From: Dermatophilaceae bacterium
GTDB lineage: Bacteria; Actinomycetota; Actinomycetes; Actinomycetales; Dermatophilaceae
Length of the DNA stretch: 45,729 nucleotides
NCBI GenBank assembly: GCA_014377705.1
Contig: JACMPC010000070.1
Location: 1 to 45,729 of the forward strand
Direction: 5' to 3'
Below, one piece after another: positions 39,414 to 45,729 of the stretch (position 1 is the stretch's first letter; each line of letters starts with the position of its first letter). Below the pieces are notes generated by a model. That model saw only the letters and a list, made by a program, of their open reading frames with translations. It ran no database searches and had not been told where the DNA came from. Made by a program: the position numbers and the translations under genes.

Positions 39414-40673
39414 TCAGGATATGTCGCCGCGCTTCGGAGTGGTAGCCAACCGCTCACCTTCGACCAGACTTGCTGGGCGAACGGCACCGGCACCGAACCG
39501 TGCACTGGCCTGGTCGACCGCGCGATCGGCGTCTCGCCAGCCGTGCTCCGGCTCGTCGAGCAGACCCTGAACCGGCGCCAGATCAGAGTCCATGAGGCCC
39601 TCCATCCGGACTCCGACCAACCGCAGGCGGGCCCGTTGCAGACTCAGCCCGTCATAGAGTGCCCGCGCCGTCGCGTAGATGTCACGGCTGACGTCTGTCG
39701 GGTCACGCAGGGTCCTGGAACGGGTGATCGTGGTGAAGTCGGAGAAGCGCACCTTGACCGAGATCGTTCGCCCCACCATCCCCGCCGCGCGTACGCGGGC
39801 TGCCGTGCGGTCGCTGAGCTTGAGCAGCTCCCGGTGGATGTATGCCGGGTCATCCACGTCGAAGGGAAACGTCTCGTCGGCGCCGATGCTTCGTTCACGA
39901 CGGGTGGGCGTCACCGGACGGGAGTCGCGCCCCCAGGCCAGCGCGTGCAGGGCGGGACCAGCGTTGTCGCCGAGGGCCCTGCGCAGCGTGTCAACGGGGG
40001 TGTGGGCGATATCAGCCACGGTGTGCAGGCCCAGACGCTGCAGAACCTCCTCTGTCCTGTCGCCAACTCCCCACAGTGCCCCGACCGGTAGCTGGTGGAG
40101 GAAAGGGACCACCTCGGCCTCGGGCACGATGAGCAGCCCGTCAGGTTTGGCCAGTCCCGACGCCAGCTTCGCGATGAACTTGGTGGTGGCAACGCCGACC
40201 GAGCAGGTGATGCCCTGCTCGTCGGCAATCGTGTCGCGGATCCGCTGGGCGATCTGGAGTGGTCTGCCCAGCCGCCGTCTGGCGCCGGAGACATCCAGGA
40301 ACGCCTCGTCCAGCGAGAGGGGTTCGACCAGCGGCGTGACGCTGGCGAAGACCGCCATGACAGCCCGGGAGATGCGCTCGTAACGGGCATAGTCAGGGGC
40401 GATAACGGTCGCTTGCGGGCACAGCCGGCGGGCCCGGGCGATCGGCATCGCCGCCGCCACGCCGAAGGCGCGAGCCTCGTAGGTCGCGGACAGCACCACC
40501 CCTCGGTTACCGCCTCCGGCAATGATGACCGGCGTGCCCCTGAGCTCGGGGCGAGAGAGCAGGGAGGCCAGGGCATAGAACGCATCCATGTCCACGTGCA
40601 GGATCGAACAGCCGTCGTCGTCAGGTGCCTGCCCGTCCGGACGTTCGGGCAAGACATACTGGCGCCGGCTCAT
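39414..40673 (-). CDS. dinB: DNA polymerase IV (DinB, Y family)
   Basis: A 419-residue translesion polymerase. Catalytic acids lie in HVDMDAFYA (D28, D30) and SLDEAFLDV. YEARAFGVAAAMPIARARRLCP and CSVGVATTKFIAKLASGLAKPDG are fingers and palm signatures. LWGVGDRTEEVLQRLGLHTVADIA is the thumb HhH, and a little-finger domain follows (RTISVKVRFSDFTTITRSRTL). ATG 40673. The C-terminus ends GERLATTPKRGDIS, where I see no clear beta-clamp motif. It is downstream of the methyltransferase and dnaE2 on the same strand, so all three may be co-expressed, perhaps under damage control. Confidence 0.95.
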   Translation of the reverse strand: MSRRQYVLPERPDGQAPDDDGCSILHVDMDAFYALASLLSRPELRGTPVIIAGGGNRGVVLSATYEARAFGVAAAMPIARARRLCPQATVIAPDYARYERISRAVMAVFASVTPLVEPLSLDEAFLDVSGARRRLGRPLQIAQRIRDTIADEQGITCSVGVATTKFIAKLASGLAKPDGLLIVPEAEVVPFLHQLPVGALWGVGDRTEEVLQRLGLHTVADIAHTPVDTLRRALGDNAGPALHALAWGRDSRPVTPTRRERSIGADETFPFDVDDPAYIHRELLKLSDRTAARVRAAGMVGRTISVKVRFSDFTTITRSRTLRDPTDVSRDIYATARALYDGLSLQRARLRLVGVRMEGLMDSDLAPVQGLLDEPEHGWRDADRAVDQASARFGAGAVRPASLVEGERLATTPKRGDIS

Positions 40674-41591: not shown

Positions 41592-44500
41592 CTAGCGTCC
41601 TGAGCTTCCCGGGCTGGCGTGCCACAGCTTGCGGGGTGGAGCGCCTTCCTGGGGCACGGCGTGGCCCTCCGTGGGCAGCTTGCGGGAGTCCCTGGCATCA
41701 CCCCCGGCAGGTTTGACGTCCGCGTAGGGCGACTGCCTGAACCCTGAGGCGTGCACCAGCATCCTGCGGCGGGATCCGCCAGCCCCATCGATCGGGTCGT
41801 CTTGGTCGCCACCGTGCTCATCGGCTTCGGACAGCGTCGCGTGGACTTCCTCGAGACCACCTCGGCTCCAGTCGTCCCACAACCCGGAAAGCTCCCACGC
41901 CCCGGTCGCACGCAGGGAGACCCCCCTGGGCCCGGTACGTCGCAGGATCCCGCGGACCAGCAGCATCCAGGAGTGGAAAACTGTTGCCGCATAAGGGCCC
42001 TGGACATCTTCGAAAAAAGTGGCGTCAACCGGTCCGGTCGAGTCGTCAAGGGTCAGGAACACCACTCGTCGACCCGAGCGGACCGGCGGTGTCTGGGTGG
42101 CGACCTTCACCCCGGCAACCCACAGCTCGGACCGGCTGCGTTGTCCGAGCAGCTGACCGGACCGGGTCACTCCGAGCGCCTGCAACATGGGGGCATAGAA
42201 GTCGATGACGTGAGCACTGGCATCCAGCCCGAGGATGTCCAGCTCGGCCCGAACCCGCTCCTGGCCCGTCATCTCGGGCAACCCGGTGGCTGTGGTGAGC
42301 TCGGGGGCATCCCCCAGATCCAGGGTGAGCTGGGTGGGCTGCGCCCGGGCCGGCATGACGGGCAACGCGCCCTGGGACTGAGCCGCCGCGAGAAGTCGCA
42401 CGTCACGCGTCCGCGGGCCAGCCGGTCGATCCGGTGCCGCCGGCCCCGGTGTCGATTCTCTGGTTGCCGTCGATTCTCTGGTTGCCGCTGCGGCCCCGGA
42501 GAAGCTGCGGGACGGTCGAGCTGCCGCCCTGCGACCGGCTCGACGCACCGATCTAGAAGTGGATGTCGCGGAAGACCACCGGTCGAGTTCGGCCACATGC
42601 AGCAAGAGGTCGCGCCGGGTCACCCTGCCGCGTCGCCCGGTTGAACTGCTGGCGCCGGAGACCCCCATCGTGCCGCCGTGCCGGCTCAGTCCATAGAGCG
42701 AGTCGAATCCCCCGGCCATGACCAGTCGCTCGACCACCGGGCGGCTGACCTGGGCGCGATGCCAGAAATCGGCAAGAGTGATGTAGGGATGGCCGGCCAG
42801 GATGCGCTGCACCTCGGCGTCGCTGATTCCCTTGACGTCGGCCAAAGACAGCCTGATGCCATAATCTCGCCCATCGGGCAGATCGGGACAGGGCTGCTGC
42901 TCCGCGGGATCCGCGTTGTCTCCTTGCCCCCATAGAACGACCCGTTCCACCTGGTAGCTCTCGCCTGAGGCATTGACGTCCAGCCCCAGAATCGTGATGC
43001 CCAGGTTGCGGGCGTCATCCAGGATCAGTCGTTTGGGGTACATGCCCGGGTCGTGGGTGAGCACCCCGGATAGGAAGGCTGCCGGGTGATGAGCCTTGAG
43101 CCAGGCCGACTGGTAGGTGGGCAAAGCGAACGCTGCCGCGTGGGCCTTGCAGAACCCGAAGGAGGCGAAAGCCTTGAGAACCTCCCAGATCCGGTCGACC
43201 GAGGCCGGCTCATATCCCCTGGCCGCCGCTGCCGGGCGCCACCAGGTCTCGACGTCCAGCTGACCCTGAGGTGATCCGAGTGCCCTGCGCACCTCATCTG
43301 CCTGGGCCAGGGTGACGCCGGTGGTCTCGGCAACGATCTTGAGCACCTGTTCGTGGAAGACCACGACGCCCTGGGTCTCCTTCAGCGCCGACACAAGGCT
43401 GGGGTGGAGGTACTCCGGCGCACGCCAATGGTTGCGGGCCAGCAGGAACGGGCTGATCATGTCGGACTTGACCGGGCCGGGGCGGAACAACGAGATGTCG
43501 ATGATGAGGTCTTCGAAGGTCTCCGGGCCGAACTTGCCGATCAGCTCACGCTGACCGGGGCTCTCGATCTGGAAGCACCCCAACGTGTGCGTGGACCGGA
43601 TAAGACGGAACGCCCTGTCATCATCGAGAGTGACCTGTGCCCGGTTGTCAAGATCGATGTTGACGCCGTCGACCCGGGCCACCTCGTCGACAGCGTGCGC
43701 CATCGCGGACTGCATGCGGATGCCGAGGATGTCGAGCTTGAGCAGGCCCAGGGTCTCGACGTCGTCCTTGTCGAACTGGCTCATCGGAAACCCCAGCCAG
43801 CTGGCCTCGACCGGGGTGCGATCAAGCAGTCCCTTGTTGGACAAGATCACACCACAGGGATGCACGGCGATGTGCCGGGGCAGACCGTCGAGCCGTTCCA
43901 CGAGGTCGAAAAGGACCCGCAGGCGAGGAGCAGTCAGGCCGCTGGCGCGCAGCTCGGGCAGCTCGGCCAGGGCGCCCCGGACATCGCGGGCCCGAATGTG
44001 TGGGAACGCCTTGGCGATGACGTCGATCTCACCCGGCGGCAACCCGAGCGCGGCGCCGGCGTCCCTGATCGCATGGCGCACCCGGTAGGTGTCCATCATC
44101 GATACACAGGTCACCCGGTCACCACCGAAGCGTTCCAGGACGTGCTCGTAGATCTCGGTGCGCCGGGCTGACTCCACGTCGATGTCGATGTCGGGAAGCT
44201 GGGCCCGCAGAGGTGAGCAGAACCGCTCCATGAGCAGGCCATGACGCAACGGCTCCACCCCGCTGATGCCGAGCAGGTAGTTGACCAGGCTGCCGGCCCC
44301 CGAACCTCGCGCCGCCACCCGCACCCCGAGATCACGGATCAGGTCGCACACCGCAGCCACCGTCATGAAGTAGGTCGGGTAGCCGAGCCCGGCGATGACC
44401 CGAAGCTCGTCTTCGAGCCGCGATGCCACCGCTGACAGCTCGGCGTCCCCCGCTCCCCCGTATCTGGTCGCGATGGCCCCCCGGCAACGAGCCGCCAGAA

Positions 44501-45596
44501 TCTCCTGAGGACTCTCGCCGACGGCGATGCCGAGGGTTGAGGGCTCCGGAAGGTGCACCGAGCCGATACCGAGGTCGGTGCGCGAGTCCAGCGCACACGA
44601 CTGCGCCAGGGCCACGGTGTCGGCCATCAGCTGGCGGGCCCGGTCACGTTCACCGCTGCCCCCACCGGTGACCCCCGCGCCGGCGGCCCGGGCGACGTCG
44701 CAGGCCACGGAGTACATCTGGGCGGACGAGCTGAGATGGCCGGCCATAGTTACCCGGTCGAGATGACGCGTGTCCAGTGGCACGAGGCGGCGGGCTGCAT
44801 CAAGGAGGTCGACGGTCACTGCGCCGCCGGGATCGGCATGCCGGACCGCTGCCGTGAGCACCGTGGGCAGACCGGCCTCTGTGGCCAGACCCAGCAGCCG
44901 GGCGGCATGCCCGAGGCTGGCAGGGGTTCCCTCCGGCCCGCCATGGCACACCACCTCGATGACCACGCCGCCGCGCGGCAGCAGGTCAACCCACCGGCGA
45001 AGGAGCAGACGTGCCCGCTGGGGCTGGCGGGCCAGCAGGGCCTGGCCCACATCAGAGCCCGGTCCGAGCAGGACCACGAGTGCCAGCGCTCCGGTCCGCG
45101 GATCGACGGCCATCTCGGCAATGAGCTCTGCGTTGCTGACCGGAGCCCCGCGTTCACCGCTGAGGTGGGTCTGGGTAACCAGATGGCACAACCTGCCCCA
45201 ACCAACGCCGGGATCGACCCCGGCTCCCTGTCCACGAGCCAGCACGGTGACCCGGGGGTATCGGGGATCGACCTCGGCGCCGCCCCGGGCGGGATGGGCA
45301 CGACCAGGGTGGACCCGCTCTGCCCGAGCCCCCCGCCCGGCACCGACATTGGCCTGCCCTGTCGTCTGGGATGTGCCCTGTCTCACAGCCAGATCCACCC
45401 CGAGCACCGGAGCGATGCCGGCCTGGTCGCAAGCCTGCACGAAACGGACCGCCCCATAGAGTCCGTCGCGGTCGGTCAGTGCCAGCGCGGGCTGGCCCTG
45501 CGCGCAGGCACGCTCCACCAACGCCGCAGGGGTCGATGCGCCGTAACGCAACGAGAAGCCGGACGCGACGTGCAGGTGGACAAAGACGTCACTCAT
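41592..45596 (-). CDS. dnaE2: Error-prone DNA polymerase DnaE2 (ImuC)
   Basis: A 1334-residue C-family polymerase for damage tolerance and mutagenesis. ATG 45596 (MSDVFVHLHVASGFSLRYGAS) fits family N-termini; GTG 45611 adds five residues. The PHP domain starts FVHLHVASGFS and continues ALTDRDGLYGAVRFVQAC. The palm has LRAQLPDIDIDVES (catalytic Asps) and GVRVAARGSGAGSLVNYLLG. HPCGVILSNKGLLDRTPVE is also conserved. A C-terminal OB domain (VVFLTLDDSTGPVDATFFEDVQ) and the LWHASPGSSGR tail finish it. It is longer than the usual 1050-1150 residues, due to low-complexity inserts near residues 75-155 and 1000-1090. Methyltransferase and dinB genes follow. An 18-bp array precedes the start. Confidence 0.93.
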   Translation of the reverse strand: MSDVFVHLHVASGFSLRYGASTPAALVERACAQGQPALALTDRDGLYGAVRFVQACDQAGIAPVLGVDLAVRQGTSQTTGQANVGAGRGARAERVHPGRAHPARGGAEVDPRYPRVTVLARGQGAGVDPGVGWGRLCHLVTQTHLSGERGAPVSNAELIAEMAVDPRTGALALVVLLGPGSDVGQALLARQPQRARLLLRRWVDLLPRGGVVIEVVCHGGPEGTPASLGHAARLLGLATEAGLPTVLTAAVRHADPGGAVTVDLLDAARRLVPLDTRHLDRVTMAGHLSSSAQMYSVACDVARAAGAGVTGGGSGERDRARQLMADTVALAQSCALDSRTDLGIGSVHLPEPSTLGIAVGESPQEILAARCRGAIATRYGGAGDAELSAVASRLEDELRVIAGLGYPTYFMTVAAVCDLIRDLGVRVAARGSGAGSLVNYLLGISGVEPLRHGLLMERFCSPLRAQLPDIDIDVESARRTEIYEHVLERFGGDRVTCVSMMDTYRVRHAIRDAGAALGLPPGEIDVIAKAFPHIRARDVRGALAELPELRASGLTAPRLRVLFDLVERLDGLPRHIAVHPCGVILSNKGLLDRTPVEASWLGFPMSQFDKDDVETLGLLKLDILGIRMQSAMAHAVDEVARVDGVNIDLDNRAQVTLDDDRAFRLIRSTHTLGCFQIESPGQRELIGKFGPETFEDLIIDISLFRPGPVKSDMISPFLLARNHWRAPEYLHPSLVSALKETQGVVVFHEQVLKIVAETTGVTLAQADEVRRALGSPQGQLDVETWWRPAAAARGYEPASVDRIWEVLKAFASFGFCKAHAAAFALPTYQSAWLKAHHPAAFLSGVLTHDPGMYPKRLILDDARNLGITILGLDVNASGESYQVERVVLWGQGDNADPAEQQPCPDLPDGRDYGIRLSLADVKGISDAEVQRILAGHPYITLADFWHRAQVSRPVVERLVMAGGFDSLYGLSRHGGTMGVSGASSSTGRRGRVTRRDLLLHVAELDRWSSATSTSRSVRRAGRRAAARPSRSFSGAAAATRESTATRESTPGPAAPDRPAGPRTRDVRLLAAAQSQGALPVMPARAQPTQLTLDLGDAPELTTATGLPEMTGQERVRAELDILGLDASAHVIDFYAPMLQALGVTRSGQLLGQRSRSELWVAGVKVATQTPPVRSGRRVVFLTLDDSTGPVDATFFEDVQGPYAATVFHSWMLLVRGILRRTGPRGVSLRATGAWELSGLWDDWSRGGLEEVHATLSEADEHGGDQDDPIDGAGGSRRRMLVHASGFRQSPYADVKPAGGDARDSRKLPTEGHAVPQEGAPPRKLWHASPGSSGR
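42452..42487. repeat. 18-bp tandem duplication in the DnaE2 linker
   Basis: TCGATTCTCTGGTTGCCG occurs perfectly at 42452-42469 and 42470-42487. On the coding strand it encodes a duplicated ATREST peptide in a Ser/Arg/Ala-rich linker before the OB domain. Confidence 0.92.
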
Positions 45597-45729
45597 GTCC
45601 ACCAACGTCACTCATGTCACCAACGTCACTCATGTCACCAACGTCACTCATGTCACCAACGTCACTCATGTCACCAACGTCACTCATGTCACCAACGTCA
45701 CTCATGTCACCAACGTCACTCATGTCACC
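45597..45729 (-). repeat. Array of at least seven perfect 18-bp repeats ahead of dnaE2
   Basis: Plus-strand unit ACCAACGTCACTCATGTC is repeated without change at 45601-45618, 45619, 45637, 45655, 45673, 45691 and 45709-45726, with a partial copy to the window end. On the minus strand each unit reads GGTGAC then ATGAGTGACGTT, so it contains a start codon plus codons of MSDV, the same as the dnaE2 start ATGAGTGACGTC. The array frame is open (MSDVGD per unit). An extra G next to the gene puts it one base out of frame with dnaE2. It then stops at TGA 45591-45589, just inside dnaE2. Confidence 0.95.

Follow-up and report, generated by a model that had tools for sequence, protein, structure and literature searches.

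A perfect 18-bp tandem array stands directly in front of a dnaE2-like gene for an error-prone polymerase in a member of the Dermatophilaceae, and the array is genuine. Judged by its sequence, it looks as if the stop/start overlap between dnaE2 and a preceding HEPN_SAV_6107 gene (HEPN), which comprises ATGAGTGA and its neighboring bases, had been expanded in tandem in this lineage only. The array is most readily understood as a tolerated repeat, and it is considered fairly probable that its open frame carries ribosomes between the HEPN stop and the start of dnaE2 and so keeps the two genes translationally coupled. The position between two genes, whose stop/start overlap the array appears to copy, is not visible from the window alone. 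Uncommon here are the content and the perfection of the unit, which were found in one of 186 genomes of the family.

The array and its two contig ends

The window is the whole stretch of DNA that was analyzed, 45,729 nucleotides that make up all of contig C205 in a genome assembly of 3.78 Mb and 278 contigs. The array takes up positions 45600 to 45729 on the minus strand as a period-18 run of 130 bp without a mismatch (unit GGTGACATGAGTGACGTT on the coding strand). It holds seven exact units and continues past the contig end, which bears out the sequence-only reading of at least seven identical 18-bp copies running off the window. TRF places the array at 45586-45729 with 7.9 copies, a 99% match, and a score of 279, the top of its 27 rows in the window.

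Twelve exact matches to the unit were found in this genome (G000), split six and six between C205 and the beginning of contig C160, and all of them are confined to these two facing contig ends. This count misses the window's seventh copy, as one base is cut off in the phase searched. Bases 1-124 of C160 form a period-18 array that is identical to the one in C205. The two ends share at most 109 bp in register, so that a single array would hold at least 145 periodic bases or about eight units, which is only a minimum because the assembly breaks within the array.

That break, together with the absence of the array from two sister genomes, would also suit an assembly artefact, in which the array or its length was produced by the assembler or by amplification. 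Such an origin is very improbable, as two contigs enter the same array from separate flanks, each of them unique, and cover 130 and 124 bases of it without a mismatch, and paired contig ends of this kind are the look of a real array that is too long for the assembler. Contig C1 also starts in an array, an unrelated 15-bp repeat of 13.5 copies (L133, positions 1-199).

A search for the unit in related genomes had been proposed by the sequence-only reading. With a pattern of two consecutive units (36 bases, at most three mismatches), the array was found in one of 186 family genomes, this one, and the 185 others yielded no second carrier.

The surrounding operon and its junctions in the genus

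The gene that follows the array runs from 41592 to 45596 on the minus strand and encodes 1334 amino acids in a frame without internal stop. Five Pfam domains were assigned to the product (PHP, DNA_pol3_alpha, finger, HHH, and OB). Its top NCBIfam match is the error-prone DNA polymerase PRK05672 with 597.4 bits, which falls below the cut-off of 939, and DnaE (PRK05673) is nearly level with 588.3 bits. Another DnaE-like frame of 1246 amino acids is located on contig C156. Two Y-family polymerase genes (IMS) are found at 39414-40673 of the window and at 31544-31999 of contig C31, and one of them is Pol IV, downstream of dnaE2. Inside dnaE2, at 42451-42487, an 18-bp unit (ATRESTATREST) is repeated in 2.1 copies with a 100% match.

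Contig C160 carries two genes on the same strand as the array, both assigned by domain match: HEPN_SAV_6107 at 118-570 and DUF6504 at 574-954. A putative SOS-type box (GAACACGTGTTC) follows at 1059-1070, which places it upstream of the array by about 0.95 kb. The pattern used for this box is the LexA-type consensus GAACN4GTTC. C160 and C205 are two contigs rather than one and are regarded as neighbors because of their common array and the gene order of relatives. With the contigs joined in this way, the inferred order would be SOS box, DUF6504, HEPN, array, and dnaE2. From the order of the three genes and the upstream box, the array appears to lie within an operon and away from its promoter. 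To judge by the LexA-type box, the operon that carries the array is apparently SOS-controlled, that is, a DNA-damage operon.

All three further genomes of the genus have DUF6504, HEPN, and dnaE2 as neighbors on a single contig. Among 96 distinct loci of relatives, HEPN precedes dnaE2 in 85 (the remaining 11 gave no match), and in a wider set it does so in 138 of 156 loci; in both cases the neighbor was detected by a short motif rather than by a profile. The 1500 bp preceding dnaE2 contain GAACN4GTTC in 78 of 92 loci, compared to 0 of 92 for a control stretch of at most 1500 bp taken from dnaE2 (four of the 96 loci were too short and were left out). Within the genus, the succession of SOS-type box, DUF6504, HEPN_SAV_6107, and dnaE2 has the look of a conserved operon, and the box and HEPN were seen again in most relatives examined. 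HEPN_SAV_6107 is a possible accessory factor of DnaE2. In the part of a HEPN survey that was available (PMC3710099), the table row for HEPN-M (SAV_6107) holds a dash, and among the open-licence literature matches listed, none links the names SOS box, DUF6504, HEPN_SAV_6107, and dnaE2.

Two genomes of the genus lack the array, and in both HEPN directly overlaps dnaE2 in the same ATGAGTGA as here. In G003, HEPN ends in ACA TGA and its TGA shares a 4-nt overlap with the dnaE2 ATG, and in G001, HEPN ends in CAT GAG TGA with an 8-nt overlap with dnaE2. The HEPN end in the first unit of the array matches that of G003, and the end of the array frame on dnaE2 matches the HEPN end of G001. Based on these two junction geometries, the array is read as a multiplied stop/start junction. 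The junction of G002 (L016, about 1440-1500) has a degenerate insert in which an NN gap occurs, and HEPN and dnaE2 form one open frame. This insert indicates that the junction can change among members of the genus.

Frames through the array and the dnaE2 start

The dnaE2 start codon is the ATG at 45596-45594 on the minus strand, immediately after the last unit. The choice of this ATG is drawn from relatives, since other in-frame starts are present (GTG at 45611, TTG at 45605, and GTG at 45602). On the C160 side, the ATG of the first unit is overlapped by the HEPN stop codon TGA. In between runs a relay frame (45589-45729, minus strand) that reads (MSDVGD)n...MSDVGGHE and is open toward the window end. 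It stops at the TGA at 45591-45589, which corresponds to bases 6-8 of dnaE2, so that five dnaE2 bases are read before the stop and the relay TGA and the dnaE2 ATG give an 8-nt overlap. An open (MSDVGD)n frame that ends 5 bp inside dnaE2 had been described from the window, with the suggestion that its translation can bring ribosomes to the dnaE2 start. The frame was recovered as described, and its geometry supports the suggestion.

The extra G that had been thought to separate the frames is likewise present. The terminal GGTGGAC (45597-45603, minus strand) has one G more than GGTGAC and sets the relay frame and the dnaE2 frame apart; by reading, loss of this G would fuse the two. It also completes an 8-bp inverted repeat around the dnaE2 start, with an upstream arm at 45596-45603 (GGTGGACA) and a downstream arm within dnaE2 at 45575-45582 (TGTCCACC), both on the minus strand. 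Per unit, the frame shared by HEPN and dnaE2 contains one stop, the second frame two, and the ATG frame none. The ATGs of the array all fall into one frame, which ends on the dnaE2 start. Since 18 bp equal six codons, the copy number leaves every frame unchanged, and on/off phase variation is ruled out.

In the proposed mechanism, a ribosome terminating HEPN would reinitiate at the overlapping ATG of the first unit and would translate the MSDVGD repeat through the array. On its way, it would melt a predicted hairpin of -14.0 kcal/mol that covers the dnaE2 start, terminate at the TGA inside dnaE2, and reinitiate at the dnaE2 ATG. The coupling of HEPN and dnaE2 would be kept at any copy number, which would account for the tolerance of the insert. 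According to the available part of a study on other organisms (PMC10666635), coupling in the six gene pairs tested was almost gone at about 20 nt, and two genes set apart by a long insert of at least 145 bp would be expected to lose their coupling unless a relay frame bridged it. The relay needs no switching function. The gain or loss of a unit would not turn dnaE2 on or off, and the copies probably do no more than hand ribosomes on. The open frame itself could be due to chance, as a unit of 3n bp that is copied from an ATG-containing junction yields one easily.

A neutral repeat born by replication slippage is rather unlikely by comparison. In that case, dnaE2 would start independently, either from the ATG at 45596 or from the GTG/TTG codons just upstream, and its translation would be unaffected by the array. 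The relay geometry, which fits at both ends, argues against such independence, as do the hairpin predicted over the dnaE2 start and the weak pairing of the dnaE2 leader to the 16S tail (-6.2 kcal/mol with an assumed tail sequence). The junctions of relatives speak in its favor. Of 85 relatives, 36 have a dnaE2 start in frame at -4, -1, or -8 relative to the HEPN stop and 49 do not, 37 of the latter having a start within 30 nt. Given these 49 relatives, tight HEPN-dnaE2 coupling cannot be called conserved.

Nor is the hairpin conserved. The longest stem at this place is 5 bp in G001, G002, and G003, stems of at least 8 bp are seen there in 4 of 156 relatives, and the stems of relatives show no excess over shuffles (mean of 5.15 vs 5.06). 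The RNA fold of the array with the dnaE2 start is no better than that of shuffled sequences (z of 0.58, with 143 of 200 shuffles equal or better), and a special RNA structure is ruled out on both grounds. An Rfam search of C160 gave nothing at gathering score. The unit pairs to the same assumed 16S tail with -7.2 kcal/mol, which is within the random range at a random 5% quantile of -10.5, and a strong ribosome site was not found in the unit.

Repeats in relatives and in known systems

Tandem repeats with a period of 12-40 were scored at the dnaE2 loci of relatives, and positions were counted from an HLH motif 18 bp inside dnaE2. Starting from 190 loci, 187 had a dnaE2 start (L090, L104, and L107 were dropped), and 156 were left after removal of exact duplicates; the array described here is not among them. 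A dnaE2 match at an E-value of 1e-15 was obtained in 141 of the 186 family genomes, and junctions were taken from 60 of these 141 and supplemented with other loci. Among the best 80 of 580 named loci, the nearest are the metagenome-assembled genomes UBA4719 and palsa_659, followed by others that include Knoellia and Janibacter.

Arrays scoring at least 20 were found at the HEPN/dnaE2 junction (-200 to 0) in 14 of 156 loci, around the HEPN 5′ end (-600 to -400) in 20 of 155, and in the dnaE2 linker (+200 to +300) in 12 of 154. Only one of 155 loci had such an array at -400 to -200, and none of 156 at 0 to +200. A smaller first survey of 96 loci gave a like picture for the junction, the HEPN 5′ end, and the linker (8/96, 9/95, and 7/94). 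These counts mark the junction as permissive rather than special, and its role as a special repeat target was rejected. Repeats gather where the protein or the spacer can vary freely. A unit of 3n bp is the rule, with 73 of 81 survey arrays at a score of at least 20 having a period divisible by three.

The similar frequency of arrays at the other permissive spots of the locus favors the neutral repeat, and so does the repeat content of this genome, where TRF reports 61 arrays in 261 kb (the array at dnaE2 is counted twice, once per contig). Comparably strong arrays elsewhere in the same genome reach scores of 301, 298, and 272, and one of these likewise opens a contig. Other strong arrays were noted in L011 on C160 (2013-2168, 3.1 copies of 51 bp) and in L134 (128-310, three copies of 60 bp). 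The array in front of dnaE2 is longer and cleaner than any in the survey, scoring 112 from the window side alone against a top survey score of 68.5. The HEPN stop was located in 11 of the 14 junction arrays (it was not found in the other three) and is covered by the array in none of the 11. The closest likenesses are L023, with three extra 18-bp units that copy dnaE2 codons, and, weakly, L036, with three GTGA units. L023 (1441-1515, G036) reads THLPSF-THLSSV-THLPSF-THLHVAS, an 18-bp expansion of the first dnaE2 codons directly after the HEPN stop. L036 (1448-1500, G045) holds three degenerate units of 18/19 bp with GTGA in each and a score of only 13; it is possibly a worn-out stop/start array at the HEPN/dnaE2 junction.

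A functional role of the copy number is also conceivable, in which the units, each with an ATG and a weak GGTGA site, would gather ribosomes onto the hairpin-covered dnaE2 start, a larger number of units would increase dnaE2 output, and slippage would tune damage-induced mutagenesis while the operon stays intact. The single frame that is shared by the array ATGs and ends on the dnaE2 start would serve this purpose, the perfect identity of the units suggests recent change, and, in the available part of PMC2734929, Mycobacterium tuberculosis strains with a longer repeat have higher fpg1 mRNA. Such tuning is nonetheless quite improbable, because the ribosome-site strength of the unit lies inside the random range, the array is present in one of 186 family genomes, and the frame is copy-neutral. 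If copy number did set the output, mutation supply would be tunable through a frame-safe repeat. The sequence-only reading had proposed a slippage-prone array that tunes the mutation rate and knew of no described example. This proposal was not upheld, as gain or loss of a six-codon unit leaves the frames unaffected and, in relatives, two further permissive places in the operon have arrays at a similar frequency, while arrays also occur elsewhere in the examined part of this genome; precedents have also been published, as far as the sources consulted extend, in mycobacterial interspersed repetitive units (MIRUs) and in the fpg1 repeat of M. tuberculosis.

MIRU units measure from tens of bp up to about 100 bp, and the period here is 18 bp rather than well above it. 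According to the available part of a 2025 review (PMC12548453), the ORF of a MIRU couples at -4 nt to the gene that follows, and this coupling is believed to soften the consequences of the insertion. The likeness lies in a short ORF that is repeated at the beginning of a gene, is coupled downstream, and makes an insert believed to do little harm. As in MIRUs, the relay ORF overlaps the flanking stop and start, with 8 nt at dnaE2 instead of 4. MIRUs are, as far as that source goes, mobile and present in many mycobacteria, whereas the array occupies one place, was apparently made from the junction, and is not interspersed at many loci (12 matches at two facing contig ends only).

VNTR3239/ETR-F is a variable tandem repeat just upstream of fpg1, likewise an actinobacterial DNA-repair gene, and its length goes with expression in M. 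tuberculosis, as reported in the accessible portion of PMC2734929. Several strains were compared there, whereas the present array is known from one genome and from sequence alone; unlike VNTR3239/ETR-F, it carries start codons in an open frame. With the phase-variable (contingency) repeats of Neisseria and Haemophilus, the array shares its location at the 5′ end of a gene and a repeat structure prone to slippage, as far as the material at hand describes them.

Contingency repeats act via a change of frame or of promoter spacing. The 18-bp unit cannot shift the frame, and no change of promoter spacing was found, as judged by the SOS-type box only. Within the sources as available, relay ORFs of like geometry (MIRU) and a repair-gene repeat whose length tracks expression are already in print; among the open-licence literature matches listed, none concerns a repeat array at a dnaE2 start.

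As only one genome carries the array, its value lies in a clean reporter test of relay coupling. If the copy-neutral relay is true, a coupled operon would survive a long insert, and a multiplied overlap would act as a relay at any copy number.
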